From: Agromyces albus
GTDB lineage: Bacteria > Actinomycetota > Actinomycetes > Actinomycetales > Microbacteriaceae
Assembly: GCF_004134825.1 (NCBI RefSeq)
Contig: NZ_SDPN01000008.1
Span: 1-64,000 of the forward strand
DNA: 64,000 bases
Direction: 5' to 3'
Shown here: positions 50,546-62,844 of the stretch, piece after piece
Layout of the letters: each line of letters begins with the position of its first letter
How positions within the stretch are numbered: position 1 is the stretch's first letter
Program-made: the position numbers and the translations under genes
The notes under the pieces: model-generated
Databases searched by the model: none
Told to the model about the DNA's origin: nothing
The model's input: the letters and a program-made list of their open reading frames with translations, nothing else

Positions 50546-50590
50546 GGTGGTCGAGTAGCGCGCCGCGACGCGCGACGCTACTCGACCACC
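50546..50590. terminator. Long inverted repeat, REP-like, between convergent genes
   Basis: GGTGGTCGAGTAGCG and CGCTACTCGACCACC are perfect 15-base arms with a 15-base centre, in the gap between drrB-like (ends 50539) and acyl-CoA oxidase (ends 50596). It can terminate both transcripts. The arm sequence matches the repeats at 59926, 60204 and 60257. Confidence 0.75.
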
Positions 50591-50595
50591 GGCCG

Positions 50596-52764
50596 TTACT
50601 TCTTCGACTTCTCGGGAACGGGAAGCGTGCCCGCGGCGCGCTGCGCCGCGTAGTAAGCGCGGGCCTCGTCTTGACGTTCCTGCTCGGCGCCCGACGCGAT
50701 CTTCGCGCGCAAGTGCTCGGGGCGGTAGCCGAACGCGTCGACGAGGTCTTGCGCATGCGGGCGCAACCGCTCGATGAGCCGGTCGATGTAGGCGGTCACG
50801 GCTTGCGCGCGCTGCGGCGAGAGCCGGCCGTTGATGAGGTACCACGCGAGGTGCTTCTCGATGAGGCCGAGCCCGAACAGGTCGCGCACCCAGGTGAGCA
50901 CTTGCTTCGTTCCTGCATCGGTCGTGCGCTCGAGGGCCCGCGTGAACGCCTCCCACTGGAGCAGCTCGGCGTGCGCCCGTGCGGCTTCGATGAGCTCGTT
51001 CTGGTTGCGATTGAAGACCGCCGCGGCATCCGACTTCGGCAGCTTCCGGGCCTCTCGCAGGCGACCCGCGATGTCGCCGATCATCGCCTCGACGCGATCG
51101 GTGAGCAGCTCGCGCTGCGTGTTCGTGTCGCGGAGCTCGGCGACCGAACGGGCGGTCGAACCGAAGTCGGCGATCGTCTGCGCCAGGCGGCGCAAGCCGG
51201 TGCCGTGGTAGGCGCGGTCGGCCGTCTGCTGCACGACATAGCGGGCCATGACGCCGGCATCCGCATTCGCGAACTGCTTCGAGTAGTCGGTGAGCAGGCG
51301 CTTGGCCACGAGCTGCAGCAACACGTTGTTGTCGCCCTCGAAGGTGACGTAGATGTCGAGGTCCTGACGCAGGCCGACGATGCGGTTCTCGGCGAGGAAG
51401 CCGGCGCCGCCACTGGCCTCGCGCGCCTCCTGGAGCGTCTCGAGCGCGTGCCACGTGGAGAGCGGCTTGAGCGCTGCCGCGATCGTCTCGAGGTCTTGGC
51501 GGTCGTCGTCGGTGTCGGCCTTGCCGGAGAACACCTCGTCGAACTTCACGAGGAACTCGTCGTGCGCGAAGATCTGCGCGTACGTCGTGGCGAGCTTCGG
51601 CAGCAGCCGGCGCTGGTGGCGCTGGTAATCGAGCAGCACCTCTTCGTCGGTGTCGCTGCCCGCGGTGAACTGGCGGCGCTGGTTGCCGTAGGTGATCGCG
51701 ATCGTGAGCGCCATCGCCGCAGCGCTCGTCGCGGCGCCGTCGAGCGACACGCGACCCTGCACGAGAGTGCCGAGCATCGTGAAGAAGCGGCGGCCCGAGC
51801 TCGCGATCGGGCTCGAGTAGGTGCCGTCTTCGGCGACGTCGCCATAGCGGTTCAACAGGTTCACGCGGGGCACGCGCACGTCGGTGAAGTGCAGGCGGCC
51901 GTTGTCGATGCCGTTGAGGCCGCCCTTCAGGCCGTCGTCTTCGCCGCCGATGCCCGGCAGGAAGCCGCCATCGGCGTCGCGCAGCGGCACGTAGAAGGCG
52001 TGCACGCCGTGGTTCACGCCCTTCGTGATGAGCTGCGCGAAGACCACCGCCGCGGTGCCGTGCAGTGCCGCGTTGCCGAGGTAGTCCTTCCAGGCGCCGC
52101 GGAACGGAGTGTCGATGACGAACTCCTGCGTCGACTCGTCGTAGGTGGCCGTGGTGCCGATCGCCGCGACATCCGAGCCGTGACCCGTCTCGGTCATCGC
52201 GAACGCGCCGGGCACCTCGAGCGTCATGATGTCGGGCAGGAAGGTCTGGTGGTGGTACTCGGTGCCGAGGTGCAGCACCGCTGCACCGAACAGGCCCCAC
52301 TGCACACCCGACTTGATCTGGAGGCTCGGATCGGCGAGCACGAGCTCCTCGAACCCGGCGATGTTGCCGCCGTGGTCGTCGTGCCCGCCGAGCGACTTCG
52401 GGAACGCGCGGTGGACCGCGCCGTGTTCGACGAGGATCTTCAGTTGTTGGAGCACGCGCTCGCGGTGCTCCTCCATCGACTGGCCCTCGATGCGCTGCAG
52501 GTCGGGGTGCGCGGCGCGCTCGCGCGCGACGAGGCGCAGGTCGGCCCAGGTGCCGAGCAACTGACGGCCTAGGGTGGCGACGTCGACCTTCGGTGCTGCG
52601 CCGTGCGCGGTCGCGACCGTTGCCGGCGATGGTGCCGGTGCAGGCGTGCCGGCTGCCGGACGGGCCGGCTTCTGCGCCGAGTCGACGGCGCCGGAAGTGC
52701 GGGCTGCGGGCTGGGTCGTCGACTCTGAGGTCTTCGAGGAAGTGCTGGGTGCCGTGTCAACCAT
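50596..52764 (-). CDS. Acyl-CoA oxidase/dehydrogenase family protein
   Basis: A 722-residue FAD enzyme of the acyl-CoA oxidase type. The first 60 residues are Ala/Pro/Thr-rich with no clear function. ACOX landmarks follow: AFAMTETGHGSDVAAI, FRGAWKDYLGNAALHGTAAVVFAQL, GLKGGLNGIDNGRLHFTDVRVPRVNLL, GRVSLDGAA and EASGGAGFLAENRI, with the catalytic Glu probably in VTFEGDNNVLLQLV. It catalyses the first step of beta-oxidation with electrons passed to oxygen or flavoprotein. Upstream lies a five-unit 17-base repeat. Confidence 0.9.
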   Translation of the reverse strand: MVDTAPSTSSKTSESTTQPAARTSGAVDSAQKPARPAAGTPAPAPSPATVATAHGAAPKVDVATLGRQLLGTWADLRLVARERAAHPDLQRIEGQSMEEHRERVLQQLKILVEHGAVHRAFPKSLGGHDDHGGNIAGFEELVLADPSLQIKSGVQWGLFGAAVLHLGTEYHHQTFLPDIMTLEVPGAFAMTETGHGSDVAAIGTTATYDESTQEFVIDTPFRGAWKDYLGNAALHGTAAVVFAQLITKGVNHGVHAFYVPLRDADGGFLPGIGGEDDGLKGGLNGIDNGRLHFTDVRVPRVNLLNRYGDVAEDGTYSSPIASSGRRFFTMLGTLVQGRVSLDGAATSAAAMALTIAITYGNQRRQFTAGSDTDEEVLLDYQRHQRRLLPKLATTYAQIFAHDEFLVKFDEVFSGKADTDDDRQDLETIAAALKPLSTWHALETLQEAREASGGAGFLAENRIVGLRQDLDIYVTFEGDNNVLLQLVAKRLLTDYSKQFANADAGVMARYVVQQTADRAYHGTGLRRLAQTIADFGSTARSVAELRDTNTQRELLTDRVEAMIGDIAGRLREARKLPKSDAAAVFNRNQNELIEAARAHAELLQWEAFTRALERTTDAGTKQVLTWVRDLFGLGLIEKHLAWYLINGRLSPQRAQAVTAYIDRLIERLRPHAQDLVDAFGYRPEHLRAKIASGAEQERQDEARAYYAAQRAAGTLPVPEKSKK

Positions 52765-52783
52765 CGTCGGTTTCGTCCTTCGT

Positions 52784-52868
52784 CTGCGGTCAGGCTTCGT
52801 CTGCCGTCAGGCAGCGCCTGCGATCAGGCTTCGCCTGTGGTCAAGGCTCGCCTGCGGTCGAGGCTCAC
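52784..52868. repeat. Five tandem 17-base units upstream of acyl-CoA oxidase
   Basis: Units begin at 52784, 52801, 52818, 52835 and 52852; the consensus is CTGCGGTCAGGCTTCGC. Adjacent units form short hairpins such as CAGGC TTC GCCTG. They lie 20-104 bases before the oxidase start on the minus strand. Operator array or decayed repeat are both possible. Confidence 0.8.
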
Positions 52869-53046
52869 TTCCACGGTATGACCGCACCTCGCGCGCCCGA
52901 AACCGTGCGTCCCGGGCCTACAAACCGCGCCCGCGACCGCTCGGATGCGCCTGTCGAGACCCTACAAAGCCGAGTCGGGCCCACGTAGGACCATCGACAA
53001 TCGGATGCCGCGGCATCCGCTTATCCGAATGCTGCGCCGAACGTGA

Positions 53047-55104
53047 TCAGGCCGCGGCGACGACCCGGATCAGTGCCTCGCCGTAGGCTTCGAGCTTCTT
53101 CGCTCCGATGCCGGTGATGCCGTCGAGCTCGCCGATGGCAGCGGGACGCGCTTGCGCGACGGCGCGAAGCGTGGCGTCGCCGAACACGATGTAGGCGGGC
53201 ACTCCCTGCTCGCGCGCCTCACCCGCTCGCCACGCGCGCAGCGCCTCGAACAGCTCGAGCTCGAGCGGGCTGAGATCTGCCGAGGCGGCGGCGGCCTTCG
53301 GCCCGCGTGACCGGGTGATGCGTTCGGGTTCGGTGCGGAGCGCCACCTCGTGCCTGCCCGCGAGCACGGCGGCGGATGCCTCGGTGACCGTGAGCGTGCC
53401 GTACTCGCCGTGCGTGGCGAGCAGGCCCTGCGCGAGCAGCTGCCGCACGACACTTCGCCACTGCTGTTCGCTGAGGTCTTGGCCGATGCCCCACGTGGTG
53501 AGCGAATCGTGGTCGTACTGGCGCGAGCGCGGCGTCTCTTTGCCGCGCAGGATGTCGATGAGGTGCCCGGCGCCGAACTTCTGCCGGCGCTCACGCTGCA
53601 GGCGCACGATCGTCGACATGAGCTTCTGTGCCGGCACGGTGCCGTTCCACGAGGCGGGCGGCTCGAGGCACGTGTCGCAGTTGCCGCACGGCTGGCTCGC
53701 CTGGCCGAAGTAACCGAGCAGGTTCTGGCGTCGGCACTGCACGGTCTCGCAGAGCGCGAGCATCGCGTCGAGGTGTTGCGCCAGGCGGCGACGATGCGCG
53801 AGGTCTCCGGGACTCTCGTCGATCATGCGGCGCTGCTGCACGACGTCTTGCAGACCGTAGGCGAGCCAGGCGGTGGCCGGGGCGCCGTCGCGGCCGGCAC
53901 GGCCCGTCTCCTGGTAGTAGCCCTCGACCGACTTCGGCAGGTCGATGTGCGCCACGAATCGAACATCGGGCTTGTCGATGCCCATGCCGAACGCGATGGT
54001 CGCGACGATGACGACGCCGTCTTCGCGGAGGAACCGCTCTTGCGTGCGACGGCGGAGCGCGGCGTCGAGTCCGGCGTGGTAGGGCAGCGCGTTCACGCCG
54101 TTCGCGGCGAGGAAGGCGGCGGTCTTCTCGGTGGTGGCGCGGGAGAGGGCGTAGATGATGCCCGAGACCGGATTGCCTGCGGCATCCACACCCTCGCTGC
54201 GGACGAAGTCGAGCAGCTGCTTGCGCACCTCGAGCTTGGGCGCGATGCGGTACTGGATGTTCGGGCGGTCGAAGCTCGAGACGAAGTGCTTGGCCCCGCT
54301 GAGCGAGAGCCGGTCGGTGATCTCGCGGTGGGTGGCGTCAGTGGCGGTGGCGGTGAGCGCGATGCGCGGCACGTCGGGCCAGCGCTCGGCGAGCTCGGAG
54401 AGCGCGAGATAGTCGGGGCGGAAGTCGTGGCCCCATTGTGCGACGCAGTGCGCCTCGTCGATCGCGAAGAGCGCGACCTTGCCGCGCGCGAGGAGCTGCT
54501 TGGCCGACTCGGTGTTCAGGCGCTCGGGCGCGACGTAGAGGAGGTCGAGCTCACCCGCGACGTAGGCCCGCTCGACGTCGGCACGCTCGGCGGGCTGCTG
54601 GCTCGAATTGAGGTAGGCGGCCCGCACACCGTTGCGGACGAGCGCGTCGACCTGGTCGTGCATGAGCGCGATGAGCGGCGAGACCACGATGCCGGTGCCC
54701 TCGCGGAGCAGTGACGGGATCTGGTAGCAGAGACTCTTGCCGCCGCCGGTGGGCATGAGCACGACGGCGTCGCCGCCCGACGTGACCTGCTCGATGATCT
54801 CGGCCTGCTCGCCGCGGAACGCGTCGAAGCCGAACACCGTGTGCAGCGCCTCGGCCGCCGTCGCGAAGCGGGCCGGGGCGACGCCGCCGGGCATGGCCGC
54901 GGTCGTGTTGCGGGTCGTGTTGCGAGCAGCGCCGTGCCCGGCGCCTCGCGGCGAGGAACCGAAGCCGGCTCCCCTTTCGTTCGAGGGTGCGCCCGACCAG
55001 CCGTCGTCGGCGGGCGGAACCCAGTCGTCATCGGGCGGTGGCGCGAACTCGTCGGGATCCCAGGGGACCTCCTCGGCCGAATCGGGCTGCGCGTTCGAGT
55101 TCAC
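53047..55104 (-). CDS. recQ: ATP-dependent DNA helicase RecQ
   Basis: A 685-residue 3'-5' DNA helicase in recombination and repair. A Pro/Asp-rich N-terminal extension (about 75 residues) precedes the helicase core: MPTGGGKSLCYQIP (motif I), SPLIALMHDQ, FAIDEAHCVAQWGHDFRP (DEAH), ALTATA, VIVATIAFGMGID and YYQETGRAGRDG. The RQC zinc cysteines are in CRRQNLLGYFG and CGNCDTC, and the C-terminal HRDC domain is LELFEALRAWRAGEAREQGVPAYIVFGDATL. Full length, ATG at 55104. Confidence 0.95.
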   Translation of the reverse strand: MNSNAQPDSAEEVPWDPDEFAPPPDDDWVPPADDGWSGAPSNERGAGFGSSPRGAGHGAARNTTRNTTAAMPGGVAPARFATAAEALHTVFGFDAFRGEQAEIIEQVTSGGDAVVLMPTGGGKSLCYQIPSLLREGTGIVVSPLIALMHDQVDALVRNGVRAAYLNSSQQPAERADVERAYVAGELDLLYVAPERLNTESAKQLLARGKVALFAIDEAHCVAQWGHDFRPDYLALSELAERWPDVPRIALTATATDATHREITDRLSLSGAKHFVSSFDRPNIQYRIAPKLEVRKQLLDFVRSEGVDAAGNPVSGIIYALSRATTEKTAAFLAANGVNALPYHAGLDAALRRRTQERFLREDGVVIVATIAFGMGIDKPDVRFVAHIDLPKSVEGYYQETGRAGRDGAPATAWLAYGLQDVVQQRRMIDESPGDLAHRRRLAQHLDAMLALCETVQCRRQNLLGYFGQASQPCGNCDTCLEPPASWNGTVPAQKLMSTIVRLQRERRQKFGAGHLIDILRGKETPRSRQYDHDSLTTWGIGQDLSEQQWRSVVRQLLAQGLLATHGEYGTLTVTEASAAVLAGRHEVALRTEPERITRSRGPKAAAASADLSPLELELFEALRAWRAGEAREQGVPAYIVFGDATLRAVAQARPAAIGELDGITGIGAKKLEAYGEALIRVVAAA

Positions 55105-55251
55105 TCGTCGAGTGTAACGAGCGCCGCTGACGGACCGGCTGCCCGGCAGCGGCTGAGCGGGGCCGATCGAGCGCGGCGACCGGTGGAGGACGAGTCATCC
55201 GGATGCTTCATCGCCACTCCGAACCGGGCGAGCTCGAGATCGCTCGAGACG

Positions 55252-55289
55252 CCGATGAGGCCGGACACTCGCGTGCCCGGCCTCATCGG
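55252..55289. terminator. Hairpin terminator after the nuclease gene
   Basis: CCGATGAGGCCGG and CCGGCCTCATCGG make a 13-base perfect stem around a 12-base loop, 15 bases past the nuclease/nucleotidase stop. No clear U-tract. Confidence 0.75.
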
Positions 55290-55304
55290 TGGTGCGGTGT
55301 TCGA

Positions 55305-58300
55305 TCAGTCGACGGTCAGGGTGAACGAGCTCGACGTGCCGGTTGTCGGCACCGAGATCTCGAACGTCTGCGCGCCGCTCGCTCCCTCGGGGATCGTGAA
55401 GACCACCGTCGCCTGGCCGATGTTGTCGAGCGTCGGCGTGAACGACCGGTCGACCGGCGCGCTCGCGAGGTCGACGCCGCCGAGCGAGACGACGACGGTT
55501 CCGGCCGCGGGCTCGTTCGTGCTGAAGTCGAGCGACGAGAGGTTGACCGTCACCTGGTCGCCCACGTCGTAGCCGTCGGCGTCGGGAGCCGAGACCTTGA
55601 CTCCGACCGCGCGCTGCGCGTAGTCAGGCGTCGCAGTGCCGTGGGCGGCGTACCAGTCGACCATCGACTCGAGGTCGACCTTGCCGCTGTCGGCCTTGCT
55701 CGTGCCCGTCGCGAGGGTGAGGAAGTTGTCTCCACCGGTGCCGAGGAACGAGTTCACGCCGACCGAGTACGTCGCCGCGGGATCGAGCGGCTCGCCGTTC
55801 AGGCGAATGCTCGTGATGTGCGAACCCTTCGCCGCCGTCGGGTCGTACGTGTAGGTCAGCCCCTCGCTCACGCCGAGCTTGAGGAACGGCCTGGATGCCC
55901 CAGCCGGCTGCCACTGGTCCTCGAGCACGTCCTTGATCTTCGCTCCGGTGAGATTCATCGTGACGAGCGTGTTCGCGAACGGCTGCACCGCAGCGGCCTC
56001 GCGATACGTGACCTCGCCCGACTCGATATTCGCCCGCAGGCCGCCCGGGTTCATGAACGTGACATCGACCTCGCGAGTGCCGTCTTCATTGAGCGCCCAG
56101 AGCTGCACGTCGGCGACGAAGTTGCCGAGCGTCGACTCACCACCGCGGTTCTCGGGGTAGGAGGCGCCACCGAGGGGTGCGAACGCGGCCCGGTTGAAGT
56201 TCGCGCTCGCCTCTCCCAGCACGACATTGCCGAGTTCATCGGCGACGATCTTCGCCTGGTCGACGATCGGCTTGACCTCGGGGTCGTCGAGGTAGAGCGG
56301 CGTCGCGCCGTCCATGAGGTTGTAGACCTCGTTGGTGATCTTGGAGATCTTCTTCGCCGCGCGATCGAACTGGATCTCCATCTTGGAGAACTTCTCGCCG
56401 TACTGGCCGCTCGAGATCACGGGCCGGCCGTCGATCACGTGGTTGTAGGCGAGATGGGTGTGACCCGAGACGATCGCGTCGACCTCGGCGGTCGTGTTGA
56501 GCACGATCTTGCCGAAGCGCGTCGCGGGATCGACCGCCGACGCCACGTCGGTCGTCGCCGCGCCCTCGTGCACGAGCAGGATGAGGATGTCGGCTTCGCC
56601 GTTGTCCTTCTTGCCGTCGCTCAACTGCGCCGCGACGCGGTTCGCGGCCTCGGCGACGTCGCCCACCGTGATCTCGGCGATGCCGCCGGGGCTCACGAGT
56701 GACGGGAGCTCGTCGGTGACCGCTCCGATGAAGCCCACGTTGACGCCGTCGAACGACTGGATCCAGTACTCGGGCAATGCCGGCTTTCCGGTCGCCTTGT
56801 CGTAGACGTTGGCGCCGAGGTACTCCCAGAGGGCGAGCGGCATCACGCGATCGGTGAGGTCGGCGAAGCCCTGGTCGAACTCGTGGTTGCCGACCGAGCT
56901 CACCTCGAGCCCGGCGGCGTTGAGCGCTTCGATCGTCGGCACGTCCTGCTGGATGAACGACGTGAACGTCGAGGCGCCGATCATGTCGCCCGCTGCCGCG
57001 AACACGGTGTTCGGGTTCTCGGCGCGGATCTGCTTGACCGCGGTGGAGAGCGCCGCGATGCCGCCGGACGGCGCGGACTGCTCGATGCGACCGTGGAAGT
57101 CGTTCACGGTCACGACGTCGATCTCGACCGTCGAGGGCGCCGACTCCGTGCCCACGCCGACGAGGATCGGGTCGTGGTCGCTCGAGCGGTAGGGGGTGCC
57201 GGCTTCGCTCGCCGGACCCCAGTACTCGCGACCGGACCACTCGGCCGAGTTGATCGACCACACGCCGGCTTTGGTCACCTTGTCGGTGGCCGACTTCGAC
57301 GCGATGACGTGGTCGAGCGAGCCGAGCTCGCCGTCGAACGAGTACGTGTACTGGCCTGCGGCCTTCTTCGGCAGGATGTCGCTCCAACCCGCGTCGGCGA
57401 AGACCTTGATGGGGTCTTCCTTCGCGTAGGCGTTGAAGTCTCCGACGAGGAAGATGTCGGTCTTCCGGTCTACTGAGAGGCCCTGCGCGAAGGTGAGCAG
57501 CGACTGGGACTGCTCGACCCGCTCGTCGTTGAACGCGTCTTGACCGGGCTGGGGGCTCGGGTCGGTGCCGCTCTTCGACTTGAAGTGGTTGGCGACGACG
57601 GTCACGAACTGCTTGTCGTACTTGAAGGTCTGGGCGATCGGCTCACGCGCGATGTCCCACACGGTCTCGTCGACGATCGTCTTGGCCGCGTCGACCGGCT
57701 TGACGGCGGCCGCGCGGTAGATGATCGCGTTCGTGATGAAGTCGGTGATCGCCGCGTCGTGCAGCGCCGCGGGCGTGGGCACGAACTTCCACACCTGGGA
57801 GCCGGCGGCCTGGTTGAGGCCGGCGACGAGGTCGGCGAGCGCCTCGTCGGGCGCCTCGCCGAGCTTCACGGAGTTCTCGATCTCCTGGAGCGCCACGATG
57901 TCGGCGTCGAGGGCGTTGATCGCCGTGACGATCTTCGACTTCTGGATGGCGAACTCGGCGGCGTTCGCTGCGCCGCGAGCGTCGGGGTTGTCATCGGAGA
58001 ACGTCGTGAAGTAGTTCAGCACGTTGAAGCCCGCGACCGAGACGTCGCCGCCGACCGCGGGAGCCGCAGCGGGGCGGGGGTTCGCGGCGGTGAACGTGGG
58101 CTTGAGCGATGCGTCGCTCGCGTCGGTGATGGGCACCGGCGGCTGCAGGCGCCATTCGCCGAAGTCGAAGTTCAGCACGTATCCGCCGGCGGGGAAGTTC
58201 ACGGCGTCGCCGTTGCGCACGACCGCGTCTTTCGTGAGGTAGGGCTGGTCGCCGGGGTGTGCCGGGTTGTCGGAGCCGTTGGAGTTGCGGATGCCGATGC

Positions 58301-58988
58301 TGTAGCCGTCGTCGAGGAGGAGCCGGCTCGCGCGGTTCGCGGTGTTGGCGTTGTTCGCCGCGGTCGAGCCGGGGGCTGCGCTCTCGAACGGCTCGATGGG
58401 CATCGCGTTGCCGGCGTTCAGCCAGAGTTCACCGAAGCGCAGGAGGTTGTGGCTCGAGATGAGGCGGTGCGTTCCGCTGGGCTGCACGAGCATGCCCTCG
58501 AACGCCTCACGAGCGGCGCCGAGCACCGTGGCGGGCATGGGGGTGAGGGCGGGCACGCCCACCCCGGCCTGCACGAGTTCGACCGCGCCGGCGGCGGAGC
58601 CCGTGATCTGCGTGTTGCCGTTGAACTCGCTCACCCGGCCGGTGACGCGCACCTTGTCGCCGATCGCGACCGCGGGATTGGCGCTGGAGAGGAAGATGAA
58701 GATGCCGTCTGAGGCATTCGGCGTGGCATCCGCGGCCCCGCCAGAGCCCGCGGTCTGCAGGTAGATGCCACGGTACCCGCCCGTGCGATGGTCGGCGGTG
58801 ACGACGCCCTCGACCGTGACGGTCGCGCCGACGAGCGGCGACGTCGCGACGTTGGTGCCCTGGACCTGAGCGATGCTGTGCGTCGGTTCGGCGGCGAACG
58901 CGGGGGGCGCTGCGAACACCCCGGCGAACAAAGTGCCTGCCGCGGCGATGGCCACGGCAGAAAGGCGTTGGGTGGTGCGACGTTGCAT
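55305..58988 (-). CDS. Secreted ExeM/NucH-type nuclease fused to 5'-nucleotidase
   Basis: A 1227-residue exported protein. Signal peptide to about residue 33; an OB/lamin-tail-like domain (about 40-140); an endonuclease/exonuclease/phosphatase domain from about 325 (VAGFNVLNYF, ALQEIEN, VVANHFKSK, GDFNAYA, SDHDPI); a metallophosphoesterase from about 627 (VVTVNDFHGRIEQ, GDMIGAS, GNHEFDQG, VHEG, GHTHLAYN); a 5'-nucleotidase C-terminal domain (about 910-1085) and a C-terminal Ig-like region. It should degrade extracellular DNA and dephosphorylate the nucleotides. No sortase motif was seen. Start at 58988 after GAGGAG. Confidence 0.92.
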   Translation of the reverse strand: MQRRTTQRLSAVAIAAAGTLFAGVFAAPPAFAAEPTHSIAQVQGTNVATSPLVGATVTVEGVVTADHRTGGYRGIYLQTAGSGGAADATPNASDGIFIFLSSANPAVAIGDKVRVTGRVSEFNGNTQITGSAAGAVELVQAGVGVPALTPMPATVLGAAREAFEGMLVQPSGTHRLISSHNLLRFGELWLNAGNAMPIEPFESAAPGSTAANNANTANRASRLLLDDGYSIGIRNSNGSDNPAHPGDQPYLTKDAVVRNGDAVNFPAGGYVLNFDFGEWRLQPPVPITDASDASLKPTFTAANPRPAAAPAVGGDVSVAGFNVLNYFTTFSDDNPDARGAANAAEFAIQKSKIVTAINALDADIVALQEIENSVKLGEAPDEALADLVAGLNQAAGSQVWKFVPTPAALHDAAITDFITNAIIYRAAAVKPVDAAKTIVDETVWDIAREPIAQTFKYDKQFVTVVANHFKSKSGTDPSPQPGQDAFNDERVEQSQSLLTFAQGLSVDRKTDIFLVGDFNAYAKEDPIKVFADAGWSDILPKKAAGQYTYSFDGELGSLDHVIASKSATDKVTKAGVWSINSAEWSGREYWGPASEAGTPYRSSDHDPILVGVGTESAPSTVEIDVVTVNDFHGRIEQSAPSGGIAALSTAVKQIRAENPNTVFAAAGDMIGASTFTSFIQQDVPTIEALNAAGLEVSSVGNHEFDQGFADLTDRVMPLALWEYLGANVYDKATGKPALPEYWIQSFDGVNVGFIGAVTDELPSLVSPGGIAEITVGDVAEAANRVAAQLSDGKKDNGEADILILLVHEGAATTDVASAVDPATRFGKIVLNTTAEVDAIVSGHTHLAYNHVIDGRPVISSGQYGEKFSKMEIQFDRAAKKISKITNEVYNLMDGATPLYLDDPEVKPIVDQAKIVADELGNVVLGEASANFNRAAFAPLGGASYPENRGGESTLGNFVADVQLWALNEDGTREVDVTFMNPGGLRANIESGEVTYREAAAVQPFANTLVTMNLTGAKIKDVLEDQWQPAGASRPFLKLGVSEGLTYTYDPTAAKGSHITSIRLNGEPLDPAATYSVGVNSFLGTGGDNFLTLATGTSKADSGKVDLESMVDWYAAHGTATPDYAQRAVGVKVSAPDADGYDVGDQVTVNLSSLDFSTNEPAAGTVVVSLGGVDLASAPVDRSFTPTLDNIGQATVVFTIPEGASGAQTFEISVPTTGTSSSFTLTVD

Positions 58989-59213
58989 GACTCTCCTCAA
59001 GCGTTCGCGCCCGGCTCACACGACTCGCACTCGGGCGCGTTCCTCGGGGACTGTGCCCGTAGCCTATGAGCGCGGAGTGCCCATTTCCAAGGGTGTGCCG
59101 ACGATTGATTCGTCGATTTCACACGGCGTTCATGCGCGTCTGCGCACATGAGCATCGGCCGCCATTCGGTCCGCTCGAATGAGCAGAACCACGCCGGATA
59201 CGCTGGGACGACC

Positions 59214-60197
59214 ATGCTCACCGCTGCCCTCTCCCTCACCGGGGCGCTCGTCTACGGCGCGGCCGATTTCCTCGGAGGGCTCGCCGCCAAGCGCATGAGC
59301 GCGATGCTCGTGGCGGCGATCGCGGCACTCGCAGGACTCGTCGTGCTCGTCGCCGCCTATCCCGTGCTCGGCGGCACGTGGAGCACGCACGACGTCACGT
59401 GGGGCCTGCTCTCCGGGATCTCGGGCGCGATCGGCATCTCGCTGCTCTACGCCTGCCTCGCCATCGGGCCGATGAGCATCCTCTCGCCCCTCACCGCCGT
59501 GATCTCTGCGACGGTGCCGATGATCTGGGGGCTGCTCGTGAACGGCGAGCGATTCGGCTCGCTCGGGTATTGGGCGCTCGGCCTCGCGCTCCTCGCGGTG
59601 GTGCTCGTGGGCTTCGTTCCTGAGCGCGGGGCGGTGCGGCCGCAACCTCGCGGCCTCCTCCTGGCGGTGGGTTCCGGCATCGGAATCGGCGGCTTCCTCA
59701 TCGCGATCGACCAGACCTCGGATGAGAGCGGCGTCGTGCCATTGCTCCTCAACCGTTGCGTCACCGCCGCGATCATGCTCACGGTGATCGGCGTCCTGGC
59801 GCTCATCGCCGTGTCGCGTCGGGCTGCACGCGAAATGAAGGACGAGCGGATGCCGCAGCCGGCGGTGATCGCGGTGGGTGCCTCGCCGGAGATCGCGGGG
59901 ATTCCGGCATCGGGGGATGCTCCGAGGTGGCTTCGATACGCGTCCGGCTTCGCCGGGCGCTACTCAACCACCGGACTGCTCGCGATCGCGTGCGGCGTGG
60001 TCGACGTGGTCGCCAACGGGCTGCTCCTGCTCGGCATCCGCGCGGGCGACCTCTCGGTGGCTGCAGTGCTCGGGGCGATGTATCCGGCCGGCACGATCCT
60101 GCTCGCCGCGGTCGTGCTGAAGGAGCGCATCGCGCCGGTGCAGTGGGCGGGACTCGTGCTCGCACTCACGGCGGCAGGCATGCTCGCCGTGGCGTGA
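59214..60197 (+). CDS. EamA/DMT transporter with a REP-like insertion in the frame
   Basis: A 327-residue membrane protein of about ten helices in two EamA repeats. Between repeat halves, near residues 220-260, lies an insert of about 40 residues not seen in typical family members; its residues RWLRYASGFAGRYSTTG are translated from a REP-like repeat (59926-59974). The insert precedes LLAIACGVVDVVANGLLLLG, where family similarity resumes. The frame stays open. The start ATG at 59214 lies 225 bases after the divergent nuclease start. Substrate unknown. Confidence 0.85.
   Translation: MLTAALSLTGALVYGAADFLGGLAAKRMSAMLVAAIAALAGLVVLVAAYPVLGGTWSTHDVTWGLLSGISGAIGISLLYACLAIGPMSILSPLTAVISATVPMIWGLLVNGERFGSLGYWALGLALLAVVLVGFVPERGAVRPQPRGLLLAVGSGIGIGGFLIAIDQTSDESGVVPLLLNRCVTAAIMLTVIGVLALIAVSRRAAREMKDERMPQPAVIAVGASPEIAGIPASGDAPRWLRYASGFAGRYSTTGLLAIACGVVDVVANGLLLLGIRAGDLSVAAVLGAMYPAGTILLAAVVLKERIAPVQWAGLVLALTAAGMLAVA
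59926..59974 (+). repeat. REP-like repeat, copy inside the EamA gene
   Basis: GGTGGCTTCGATACGCGTCC... to ...CTACTCAACCACCGG; 47 of 49 bases equal the copy at 60257-60305. It is read in frame as part of the transporter. Confidence 0.85.
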
Positions 60198-60203
60198 CCA
60201 ACC

Positions 60204-60246
60204 CCGGTGGTTGAGTAGCCAGCGAAGCAGGCGTATCGAAACCACC
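60204..60246 (-). repeat. REP-like repeat, inverted copy
   Basis: CCGGTGGTTGAGTAGC ... GCGTATCGAAACCACC, the reverse of the other copies with a divergent centre. Seven bases after the EamA stop; with the next copy it forms a large inverted repeat and may terminate transcription. Confidence 0.85.
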
Positions 60247-60256
60247 CGTGCCCAAT

Positions 60257-60305
60257 GGTGGTTTCGATACGCGTCCGGCTCCGCCGGGCGCTACTCAACC
60301 ACCGG
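60257..60305 (+). repeat. REP-like repeat, forward copy between convergent genes
   Basis: GGTGGTTTCGATACGCGTCC ... GCTACTCAACCACCGG, nearly identical to the copy at 59926. It lies just before the stop of the convergent helicase gene (60310), and pairs with the inverted copy at 60204-60246. Confidence 0.85.
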
Positions 60306-60309
60306 GCGG

Positions 60310-62844
60310 CTAGAGGCGCAGCACCTCGGTGACGCGCACGACGGCCGCGCCCTCCTCGGCCGAGGCATCGAGGTCGACCTCCGCGCGGATGCGCCAGTCG
60401 TGGTCGCCCGCGGGGTCGTCGATCGTCTGCTCGACGCGCCAGGTGCCGTTCGCGGCATCCGTCTCATCGATCGTGACGAGCGCGGGCGAGCGTGCAGCGC
60501 CGCCCGTGCCGATCTCGTCGTGCTCGTCGTAGTAGCGGTCGAGCGCGCCCGGCCAGTCGACGTCGGGGTCGAGTTCGGCGAGCTCGTCGTCGCGCTGCAG
60601 CGCCGCGAGCTGCACGCGGCGGAACAGCTCGTTGCGTACGAGCACCATGAACGCGCGACGGTTCGTGACGACCGACGGCGGTGCGGGCGGAACGACGGGC
60701 GCGTCGTCTTCTGGCAGGTGCGCCGTGGGATCGACGAGCTCGTTCCACTCGTCGACGAGGCTCGAGTCGACCTGCCGCACGAGCTCGCCGAGCCACTCGA
60801 TGATGTCGAGCAGCTCCTCGTTCTTCGCCTCGGTGGGCACCGTCTGCCGGATCGCGCGGAACGCGTCGGAGAGGTAGCGCAGCACGAGCCCCTCGCTGCG
60901 CGCGAGCTGGTAGTGGAAGACGTATTCTCCGAACGACATGCTTCGCTCGAACATGTCGCGCACGACCGACTTCGGCGACAGCTCGAAGTCGCGCACCCAC
61001 GGCTGGCTCGATGCGAAGGTCTCGAAGGCCTGCGCGAGCAGCTCGTCGAGGGGCTTGGGCCACGTGACCTCTTCGAGCAGCTCCATGCGCTGGTCGTACT
61101 CGACACCATCGCGCTTCATCGCGGCGACGGCCTCGCCGCGAGCCTTGTACTGCTGCTGCGAGAGGATCGGCCGCGGGTCGTCGAGGGTCGACTCGATCAC
61201 GCTCACGACGTCGAGCGCGTAGTGGCCGGTCGCGATCCCCGACCCGGGCGCCGCGTCGGGGTCGAGCAGCTCGATCGCCGCGAGCGCGAACGGCGACAAC
61301 GGCTGGTTCAGCGCGAAGTTCGGCGGCAGGTCGACCGTGAGGCGCACGATCGGCGGCGCGGCATCGGGCGTCGGCACGATCTCGACCACGCCCGCATCGC
61401 GCAGGGTCCGGAAGATCTCGAGCGCGCGCCGGGCGAGCTCGAACTGCCGCGCCCGCGGCTCGTGGTTGTCGGTCACGAGCGAGCGGATGTTTCCGATGAC
61501 GTCGCCACCGCGCCCGATCACGTTGATGAGCATCGCGGCACTCAGCTGCAGGTGGGGCGTGAGCGGCTCGGGCTCGGCGGCGACGAGTCGCTCGAACGAG
61601 CCCTCGCCCCACGTGATCTGCCCGGCCGGGGCCTTCTTGCGCACGACCTTCTTGAGCTTCTTCGGATCGTCGCCCGCCTTGCGCACGGACGTCTCGTTGT
61701 CGATCTCGTGCTCGGGCGCGAGCACGACGACGGTGCCCGCGGTGTCGTAGCCTGCGCGGCCGGCGCGCCCCGCGATCTGGTGGAACTCGCGCGCGCTGAT
61801 CTGCCGCATCTTCGTGCCGTCGAACTTCGCGAGCGCCGTGATGAGCACCGTGCGGATCGGCACGTTGATGCCGACGCCGAGAGTGTCGGTGCCGCAGATG
61901 ACGCGCAGGAGCCCGCGCTGCGCGAGGGTCTCGACGAGCCGCCGGTAGCGCGGGAGCATGCCCGCATGGTGCACGCCGATGCCGGCGCGAACGAGCCGCG
62001 AGAGGGTCTTGCCGAAGGCCGTGGTGAAGCGGAACCCGCCGATCGCGTCGGCGATCTCGTCGCGCTGCTCGCGCGAGACGATGCGGATCGACGAGAGCGC
62101 CTGGGCCCGCTCCATCGCAGCGGCCTGCGAGAAGTGCACGATGTACACCGGCGCCTGACGCGTCTCGAGCAGTTCTTCGACGGTCTCCTGTACGGGGGTC
62201 TTCGCATAGGAGAAGTGCAGCGGCACCGGCCGGTCGACGCCCGTGACGCGCGCGGTCTCGCGGCCCGTGCGGCGAGTGAGGTCGTCGGCGATCGCGGTGA
62301 CGTCGCCGAGCGTCGCCGACATGAGGATGAACTGCGCGCGCGTGAGGGTGATGAGCGGCACCTGCCACGCCCAGCCGCGCTCGGGATCGCCGTAGTAGTG
62401 GAACTCGTCCATGACGACCTGGTCGACCTCGAGATCCGCGCCCTGCCTGAGTGCGAGGTTCGCGAGGATCTCGGCCGTGCAGCAGATGATCGGGGCATCC
62501 GCGTTGACCGAGCTGTCCCCCGTGACCATGCCCACGCTCTGCGCGCCGAAGATCTCGACGAGCTGGAAGAACTTCTCGCTCACGAGCGCCTTGATGGGCG
62601 CCGTGTAGAAGGTGCGGCCGCCTCGGGCGACGGATGCCGCGTGCGCCGCGACCGCGACGAGCGACTTGCCCGTGCCCGTCGGCGTGGAGAGGATCACGTT
62701 CGCGCCCGACACGATCTCGATGATCGCCTCGTCTTGCGCGGGATAGAGCGCGAAGCCGCGCTCGTCGGCCCAGCCCACGAAGGCGTCGTACATCGCATCG
62801 GCGTCGTACGGGCGCGGGGCGAGGTCGGGCAGCGTCAGGGTCAT
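60310..62844 (-). CDS. Ski2/Mtr4-like DEAD/DEAH-box helicase with DUF3516
   Basis: An 844-residue RNA helicase-like protein. STPTGTGKSLVAVAAH near residue 53, TAPIKALVSEKFF, DEFHYYGDPERGWAWQ (variant DEVH-box), MSATLGDV, VHHAGMLPRYRRLVE, VICGTDTLGVGINVP and QIAGRAGRAGYDT are the helicase motifs. The second half matches the DUF3516 actinobacterial extension (EVTWPKPLDELLAQAFETF, FEYVFHY-like LSFGEYVFHYQLARSEG). Role in RNA turnover is inferred from the family. It spans the end of a REP pair at its 3' side. Confidence 0.9.
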   Translation of the reverse strand: MTLTLPDLAPRPYDADAMYDAFVGWADERGFALYPAQDEAIIEIVSGANVILSTPTGTGKSLVAVAAHAASVARGGRTFYTAPIKALVSEKFFQLVEIFGAQSVGMVTGDSSVNADAPIICCTAEILANLALRQGADLEVDQVVMDEFHYYGDPERGWAWQVPLITLTRAQFILMSATLGDVTAIADDLTRRTGRETARVTGVDRPVPLHFSYAKTPVQETVEELLETRQAPVYIVHFSQAAAMERAQALSSIRIVSREQRDEIADAIGGFRFTTAFGKTLSRLVRAGIGVHHAGMLPRYRRLVETLAQRGLLRVICGTDTLGVGINVPIRTVLITALAKFDGTKMRQISAREFHQIAGRAGRAGYDTAGTVVVLAPEHEIDNETSVRKAGDDPKKLKKVVRKKAPAGQITWGEGSFERLVAAEPEPLTPHLQLSAAMLINVIGRGGDVIGNIRSLVTDNHEPRARQFELARRALEIFRTLRDAGVVEIVPTPDAAPPIVRLTVDLPPNFALNQPLSPFALAAIELLDPDAAPGSGIATGHYALDVVSVIESTLDDPRPILSQQQYKARGEAVAAMKRDGVEYDQRMELLEEVTWPKPLDELLAQAFETFASSQPWVRDFELSPKSVVRDMFERSMSFGEYVFHYQLARSEGLVLRYLSDAFRAIRQTVPTEAKNEELLDIIEWLGELVRQVDSSLVDEWNELVDPTAHLPEDDAPVVPPAPPSVVTNRRAFMVLVRNELFRRVQLAALQRDDELAELDPDVDWPGALDRYYDEHDEIGTGGAARSPALVTIDETDAANGTWRVEQTIDDPAGDHDWRIRAEVDLDASAEEGAAVVRVTEVLRL

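Follow-up and report, generated by a model that had tools for sequence, protein, structure and literature searches.

Repetitive extragenic palindromes (REPs) are common among bacterial repeats and, to our knowledge, the RAYT transposase (TnpA-REP, a tyrosine transposase of the HUH type) is the sole dedicated partner known for them. According to passages of one survey (PMC3733652), in most families of GTAG REPs the most frequent dimers are those with GTAG facing outward (head to head, HH), and the CGTC-tagged REPs described there (Di Nocera 2013, PMC3733652) apparently have no dedicated transposase. The present work concerns a family of short palindromes found in a 64,000-nucleotide stretch of the Agromyces albus genome (contig NZ_SDPN01000008.1, positions 1 to 64,000, hereafter the window), which a preliminary description had taken for REP-like elements moved by a REP-associated transposase, with one copy domesticated inside a transporter gene of the EamA family. 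These repeats are real and REP/REPIN-like; from our analysis, they are probably non-autonomous elements whose partner enzyme is a GIY-YIG nuclease of roughly 95 residues, with relatives among the UPF0213 GIY-YIG proteins (for which we take YhbQ to be another name).

The similarity to the REP/REPIN-RAYT systems is extensive, since both consist of short imperfect palindromes in many copies, with GTAG beside the hairpin, pairing head to head so that GTAG faces outward, and with a repeat-flanked gene. Nevertheless, the window element differs from them in its putative partner (a GIY-YIG protein and not a Y1 HUH enzyme), in the presence of an outer stem, in an internal loop that is asymmetric and conserved (GAGTA/GTATCGA), and in an inner stem which is almost free in sequence even within one genome. 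Free-standing GIY-YIG homing endonucleases are known (the SegA-E type) and, as with these, the GIY-YIG gene discussed here appears to act as a mobile gene; here, however, the nuclease is tied to a dispersed hairpin family far outnumbering the gene. The UPF0213 proteins of known structure are relatives of the nuclease (PDB 1zg2 and 1ywl, E 6e-18 and 1.5e-12), belonging to the same sequence family and sharing the same conserved GIY-YIG residues, whereas the nearest UPF0213-like paralogues in the genomes surveyed (10 rows) have no element class nearby and lack S18 and W68, the two residues which separate them from the element-associated group. The CGTC-tagged REPs, as presented in passages of PMC3733652, are also REP-like, mainly found as head-to-head dimers and without a known dedicated transposase, but their CGTC tag, their 8-9 bp stem and their mostly present CCA tail set them apart by description. 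Among titles and abstract starts of the open-licence PMC literature, no paper was found on the window element or on a connection between GIY-YIG nucleases and REP-like repeats.

The four related elements of the preliminary description were confirmed by sequence. They are given below together with the gene that hosts one of them, G592 being a congeneric genome which matches the window's contig at about 95% identity for most of its length:

50546..50590, no strand assigned: symmetric palindrome GGTGGTCGAGTAG..CTACTCGACCACC, with both arms of the GAGTAG/CTACTC type (folding, comparison with G592)
59148..60197, plus strand: EamA-family transporter gene hosting an element (Pfam EamA on both sides of the element)
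59926..59974, plus strand: lone element of the long class, read in frame as part of the linker between the EamA domains and also present in G592
60204..60246, minus strand: short-class element, left partner of a head-to-head pair (sequence, pattern match, fold)
60257..60305, plus strand: long-class element, right partner of the pair (sequence, pattern match, fold)

The first of these begins 6 bases past the stop codon of an open reading frame (ORF) resembling, by eye, an ABC transporter permease, and the 60204-60305 pair sits between the convergent EamA ORF and ORF 60310-62844. When folded as single-stranded DNA, the single elements beat their shuffles (z from -2.6 to -6.7) and the pair forms one long hairpin (z -10.2 against shuffles). 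The window has no Rfam match at gathering score, and blastn against plasmid sequences gave no match to the pair.

That the family is genome-wide and no product of chance is clear from its copy number in the window's source genome (G000, 4.29 Mb in 111 contigs). Blastn found 55 element matches at E of at most 1e-3, and there are 58 occurrences of the strict pattern TTTCGATACG-N5..35-CTACTCAAC and 90 of the relaxed TCGATACG-N5..35-CTACTCRAC, against none of either reversed control. Read on the bottom strand, the element consists of GGTGGTTGAGTAG, an inner stem-loop and CGTATCGAAACCACC. It is an imperfect hairpin in which the internal loop (GAGTAG../..CGTATCGA), flanked by the short outer stem and the near-free inner stem, is conserved, and in which the inner stem varies in sequence and stays paired. 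From 316 distinct central sequences, collected with a pattern that made no demand for stem complementarity, 306 were long enough for a stem test, and 181 of these have an inner stem of at least 4 bp directly at the arms (3.2% in shuffles). The first inner pair (n=316) is CG in 158 cases, GC in 105, TA in 19 and AT in 14, and the outer pair adjoining the loop (n=485) is TA in 338 and CG in 134. Additionally, GTAG directly precedes the inner stem, in the manner of the REP foot tetranucleotide, although its constancy is not independent evidence, being part of the search pattern. Neighbouring elements up to 80 nt apart (n=88) are mostly in the '-+' arrangement (62, against 8 '+-', 14 '--' and 4 '++'), that is, as head-to-head pairs whose GAGTAG arms face outward. 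In a Chloroflexota metagenome-assembled genome (MAG; L155, 1096-2060), 14 elements of the family are arrayed in about 1 kb.

An all-versus-all blastp of the ORFs near elements gave, as clusters of at least four loci, ABC transporters, SDR enzymes and phage genes, among other ordinary genes; for the part of the loci covered, the clusters shown included neither a transposase nor another nuclease. The candidate partner was seen in four loci of the family with dense arrays, where minus and plus elements enclose about 350 nt encoding a GIY-YIG protein of 94-100 residues (PF01541, E 4e-14 to 2e-19); these founding loci were located through their dense arrays, and their bracketing is no independent test. 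A profile built from the four founders has a single homologue in the source genome, at G000:C1:142473-142730 (L009 1205-1462; PF01541 E 1e-13), and this gene lies between two '-' and two '+' copies, with its stop codon inside the right-hand element. The full unit (minus elements, nuclease gene, plus elements) covers about 142.26-142.85 kb of contig C1, outside the window.

The homologues found with this profile were surveyed in 70 of 95 match rows, the remainder being the source genome's own match (read separately), one row inside another locus and 23 weaker rows. Apart from the source genome's gene there are 51 close homologues (E<1e-28): the window's class of element brackets 25 of them and lies on one side of 8, and 18 have none, compared with none bracketed, 1 one-sided and 18 without among the 19 weaker ones. 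Bracketed genes occur in Chloroflexi (G647, G659, G660, G676 and G692), Treponema bryantii (G650 and G681) and Gordonia tangerina (G669), and the orientation of the bracketing is uniform over three phyla for one nuclease clade. The 18 close homologues without the window's class include 11 with variants built on the same plan, namely GAGGAG/GTCTCGA (7), GAGCYTGTCGA (3, without an inner stem) and GAGTAG/GTGTCGA (1), so that four loop classes can be listed: these three and the window's GAGTAG/GTATCGA. Some of the remaining close homologues, among the loci read, have other inverted or direct repeats nearby. With five patterns, four of them real classes, an element of any class was found within 500 bp of 43 of the 51 close homologues and of 3 of the 19 weaker ones. 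In 15 loci new from a later search, counting loop variants, 11 genes are bracketed in one class (6 of them in the window's) and 1 is one-sided; for random windows of contig C90 in the source genome, 0 of 5000 were bracketed and 8.5% had an element on some side. Three close homologues (L410, L411 and L412) stand within larger direct-repeat arrays matching no hairpin class.

In the protein, Y5, Y15, G17, R25, H29 and E62, which we take to be the catalytic residues of the GIY-YIG domain, are each conserved in at least 55 of the 56 rows. In a tree of 57 rows (few columns and many open forks; 3 rows dropped, two truncated and one with a stop), the element-associated rows minus L417 form one group apart from the UPF0213-like paralogues, with support 93/82. 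The loop classes are clustered on this tree, requiring 16 changes compared with 31 when shuffled, and five genomes with several homologues (G637, G641, G180, G182 and G282) have different element classes beside different homologues. In the genomes that could be compared, the class beside the nuclease is also the class dispersed in the vicinity. G091 and G008, whose nuclease lies among GAGGAG/GTCTCGA elements, have 10 elements of that class and none of the window's in 340 kb (and no strict copies of the window's class in the family-wide scan), the source genome has 8 of the window's class and no GAGGAG/GTCTCGA in 120 kb, and G637, with both classes beside its nucleases, has 1 GAGGAG/GTCTCGA element and 2 of the window's class in 20 kb.

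The distribution of the element is patchy. Strict copies are present in 55 of 299 genomes of the family Microbacteriaceae (28 of 85 genera), and of 45 genomes of the genus searched, including the source genome, 10 have no relaxed copy while the highest number is 223. Across 296 mostly distant genomes of the phylum, the strict pattern had the source genome as its sole match. The same arms with other stems occur, among the matches listed, in Chloroflexi (mostly Anaerolineae), Treponema, Gordonia, Aeromicrobium and others, reaching 184 relaxed copies in the Chloroflexi genome G670, 178 in Treponema bryantii G681 and 108 in Gordonia G669, with reversed controls at 0. In IMG/VR, 35 stretches carry the same arms; the IMG/VR contigs L222, L229, L233 and L237, which are related, share one element with the same stem in an identical intergenic place.

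Nuclease and element tend to occur together. In the genus, a homologue is found in 13 of 19 element-bearing genomes (chosen from 35, mostly high-copy) and in none of the 10 element-free genomes, all of which were included (Fisher p 4e-4); a later search adds two element-bearing congeners, one with a homologue (G142) and one in which it was not found (G079). In the bacterial family, the homologue is present in 35 of 55 element-bearing genomes and in 36 of 244 others (p 1e-12), these p values ignoring kinship. Outside the phyla mentioned above, 3 of 5 loci fetched (from 14 records listed) were positive: two homologues in Methylobacterium are bracketed by inverted CCTCATCCTGAGG..CCTCGAAGG palindromes and one in Sphingomonas has CTGAGCGAAGTCGAAG on both sides, no flanking elements being seen for another Sphingomonas homologue and an Acetoanaerobium one. 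On balance, we lean towards a second, RAYT-independent REP system spread across phyla, in which small GIY-YIG nucleases would read the hairpin loop (GAG...TCGA) and propagate it, one loop class each, perhaps including alphaproteobacterial palindromes.

Comparison with G592, in which no nuclease homologue was detected, shows that element sites are polymorphic between the two genomes. At the place of the source genome's nuclease locus, the G592 flanks meet at a single symmetric palindrome and the whole unit is absent. At position 70718 of contig C90 there is likewise a symmetric form in G592 and a pair in the source genome, and at 50546 both genomes have the same symmetric form. Since G592 has symmetric forms where the source genome has a pair or the whole unit, the 50546-50590 palindrome is probably a pair or nuclease unit without its inside. 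At 60204, 73591 and 77213, G592 holds stubs or remnants, with a right-arm stub alone at the place of the 60204-60305 pair.

Several observations weigh against a nuclease-driven family and have to be set beside the evidence above. No homologue was detected in 6 of the 19 element-bearing congeners nor in 20 of the 55 element-bearing family genomes, and, conversely, 36 family genomes have a homologue and no strict-class element (some of them having other classes). In G111 (60 kb) and G643 (20 kb), which have the window's class beside the nuclease, the sequence sampled held no such element, although little of it was sampled. The classes are interspersed on the protein tree, with few forks resolved, and 3 of the 15 later loci carry none of them. 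The source genome's own nuclease gene has no usual in-frame start, the sole upstream in-frame ATG, GTG, TTG or CTG being a GTG inside an element; because its frame has no start codon at the usual place, this nuclease may be inactive at present. A clean empty site with target duplication was not found in the comparison with G592 and, the relative holding remnants at several sites, the differences there may reflect either a gain in the source genome or a loss in G592. Finally, when 30 Y1 loci of element-bearing genomes were inspected, an element lay at most about 1.5 kb away in 4; at one of these, the Chloroflexi Y1_Tnp locus L257, there are two, both no farther than about 300 bp.

These last loci, and the GTAG beside the hairpin with head-to-head pairs facing GTAG outward, as in the GTAG REPs of PMC3733652 (in the passages on dimers), are what speaks for a REP/REPIN family of the classical kind with a RAYT as its mobiliser, either lost here or acting from elsewhere, which is how the preliminary description had seen it. 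We find this extremely improbable. Y1_Tnp (PF01797) has no match in the source genome, although the same search is positive in E. coli, and only 3 of the 299 family genomes match; it is absent from all 15 element-bearing actinobacterial genomes and from 5 of 7 Treponema genomes, and none of 45 RAYT-like Chloroflexi loci (picked by length, 5 of them overlapping the 30 Y1 loci) has an element. PF01797 matches 27 of 49 element-bearing genomes elsewhere. Its absence from whole element-rich genomes nearly refutes the RAYT as mobiliser, and the gene that is bracketed in the source genome encodes the GIY-YIG nuclease instead. As a separate observation, the Chloroflexi Y1_Tnp matches of L254, L255, L257, L258 and L259 stand in frames of 408-627 aa, far above the usual length of a Y1 transposase. 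Integron attC sites were set aside by eye: these have the arrangement RYYYAAC ... GTTRRRY, and the boxes here would be reversed (GTT..AAC). For a MITE of a DDE transposon, a parent transposon with the same ends and a target site duplication would be expected; near elements, in the loci compared, the gene clusters shown included no transposase, and the comparison with G592 gave no clean pair of filled and empty sites.

A different relation between the two partners would be one in which the GIY-YIG gene is a parasite, a free-standing homing-type endonuclease which targets palindromes that something else spreads. The symmetric palindrome standing in G592 exactly at the place of the nuclease unit has a form that a homing target might have, and the 20 element-bearing family genomes without a detected homologue would fit as well; but a single homing event would leave split halves and not arrays, whereas many loci have several copies on each side in fixed orientation, and different homologues of one genome stand among different loop classes. 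The gene clusters near elements, for the part of the loci shown, contained neither a transposase nor another nuclease. We consider this parasite unlikely. The hairpins could, on the other hand, be selected host elements (terminators, mRNA stabilisers or topology sites) moved by recombination, with the nuclease as a nearby host repair protein, given that the window copies, except the one inside a gene, follow stop codons or lie between convergent ORFs. With a copy number that is zero for 10 of the 45 genus genomes searched and 223 for another, with one copy inserted in frame inside a gene, and with one gene clade bracketed far above random windows, such a role is very improbable as the explanation of the family.

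The link between the GIY-YIG nuclease and the hairpins, for which the evidence is bracketing, orientation, the matching of classes and co-occurrence, leads us to infer that the nuclease moves them. In the mechanism we propose, the nuclease would recognise the extruded hairpin or cruciform through its internal loop and cut there, and the cut ends or the released hairpin would then be copied to new places by host replication or repair. GIY-YIG enzymes hydrolyse DNA; therefore, a transposase-like strand transfer is not expected and the copying would need host replication or repair. Once the nuclease is absent, the copies would erode.

The copy at 59926 is read in frame within ORF 59148-60197, as ...RWLRYASGFAGRYSTTG..., and the preliminary description was correct in placing it between the two halves of the EamA protein, with Pfam EamA matches before it (E 2e-6, residues 26-155 of the first part) and in the C-terminal half (E 2.8e-15, residues 277-346). 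It is the only copy with coding-like GC content at third codon positions (GC3) on both sides in frame, among 21 loci of the source genome tested (part of all copies). In a search of 60 genus genomes, 48 had a match to the transporter; of the 30 loci given, 6 were missed by the motif used for the alignment, and in the 24 congeneric rows aligned the element peptide is present in 2, those of the source genome and of G592, so that nearly all orthologues are without the insert. The other aligned orthologues have different, highly variable linkers at that position. The 47/49 identity between the copies at 59926 and 60257 does hold (2 of 49 bases differ; 93% over 55 nt by alignment), and it reflects a common subfamily, rather than the recent mobility it had been taken to suggest for the in-gene copy: G592 has this copy at the same position and therefore the insertion is older than the split of the two genomes. 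Domestication likewise finds no support, the linker being highly variable among orthologues, with no sign of gained function, and the G592 orthologue (L055) having an internal stop codon. The copy is best called an in-frame insertion tolerated in a variable linker, and it would be an old one, tolerated because the frame was kept in a permissive linker. Beside the transporter gene, at 55305-59000, there is a large ORF which by eye resembles a nuclease/5'-nucleotidase fusion.

The reading of the window is thus corrected, the in-gene copy being a tolerated insertion rather than a shown domestication. Beyond the window, a GIY-YIG partner found by bracketing, with class differences between homologues, offers a concrete enzyme and substrate for testing, and a simple model for repeat spread driven by a nuclease that reads structure. 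The bracketing approach is also a route to the partners of other orphan palindromes. If the proposed partnership is true, many orphan repeat families could share a GIY-YIG partner, maybe including the abundant alphaproteobacterial palindromes.

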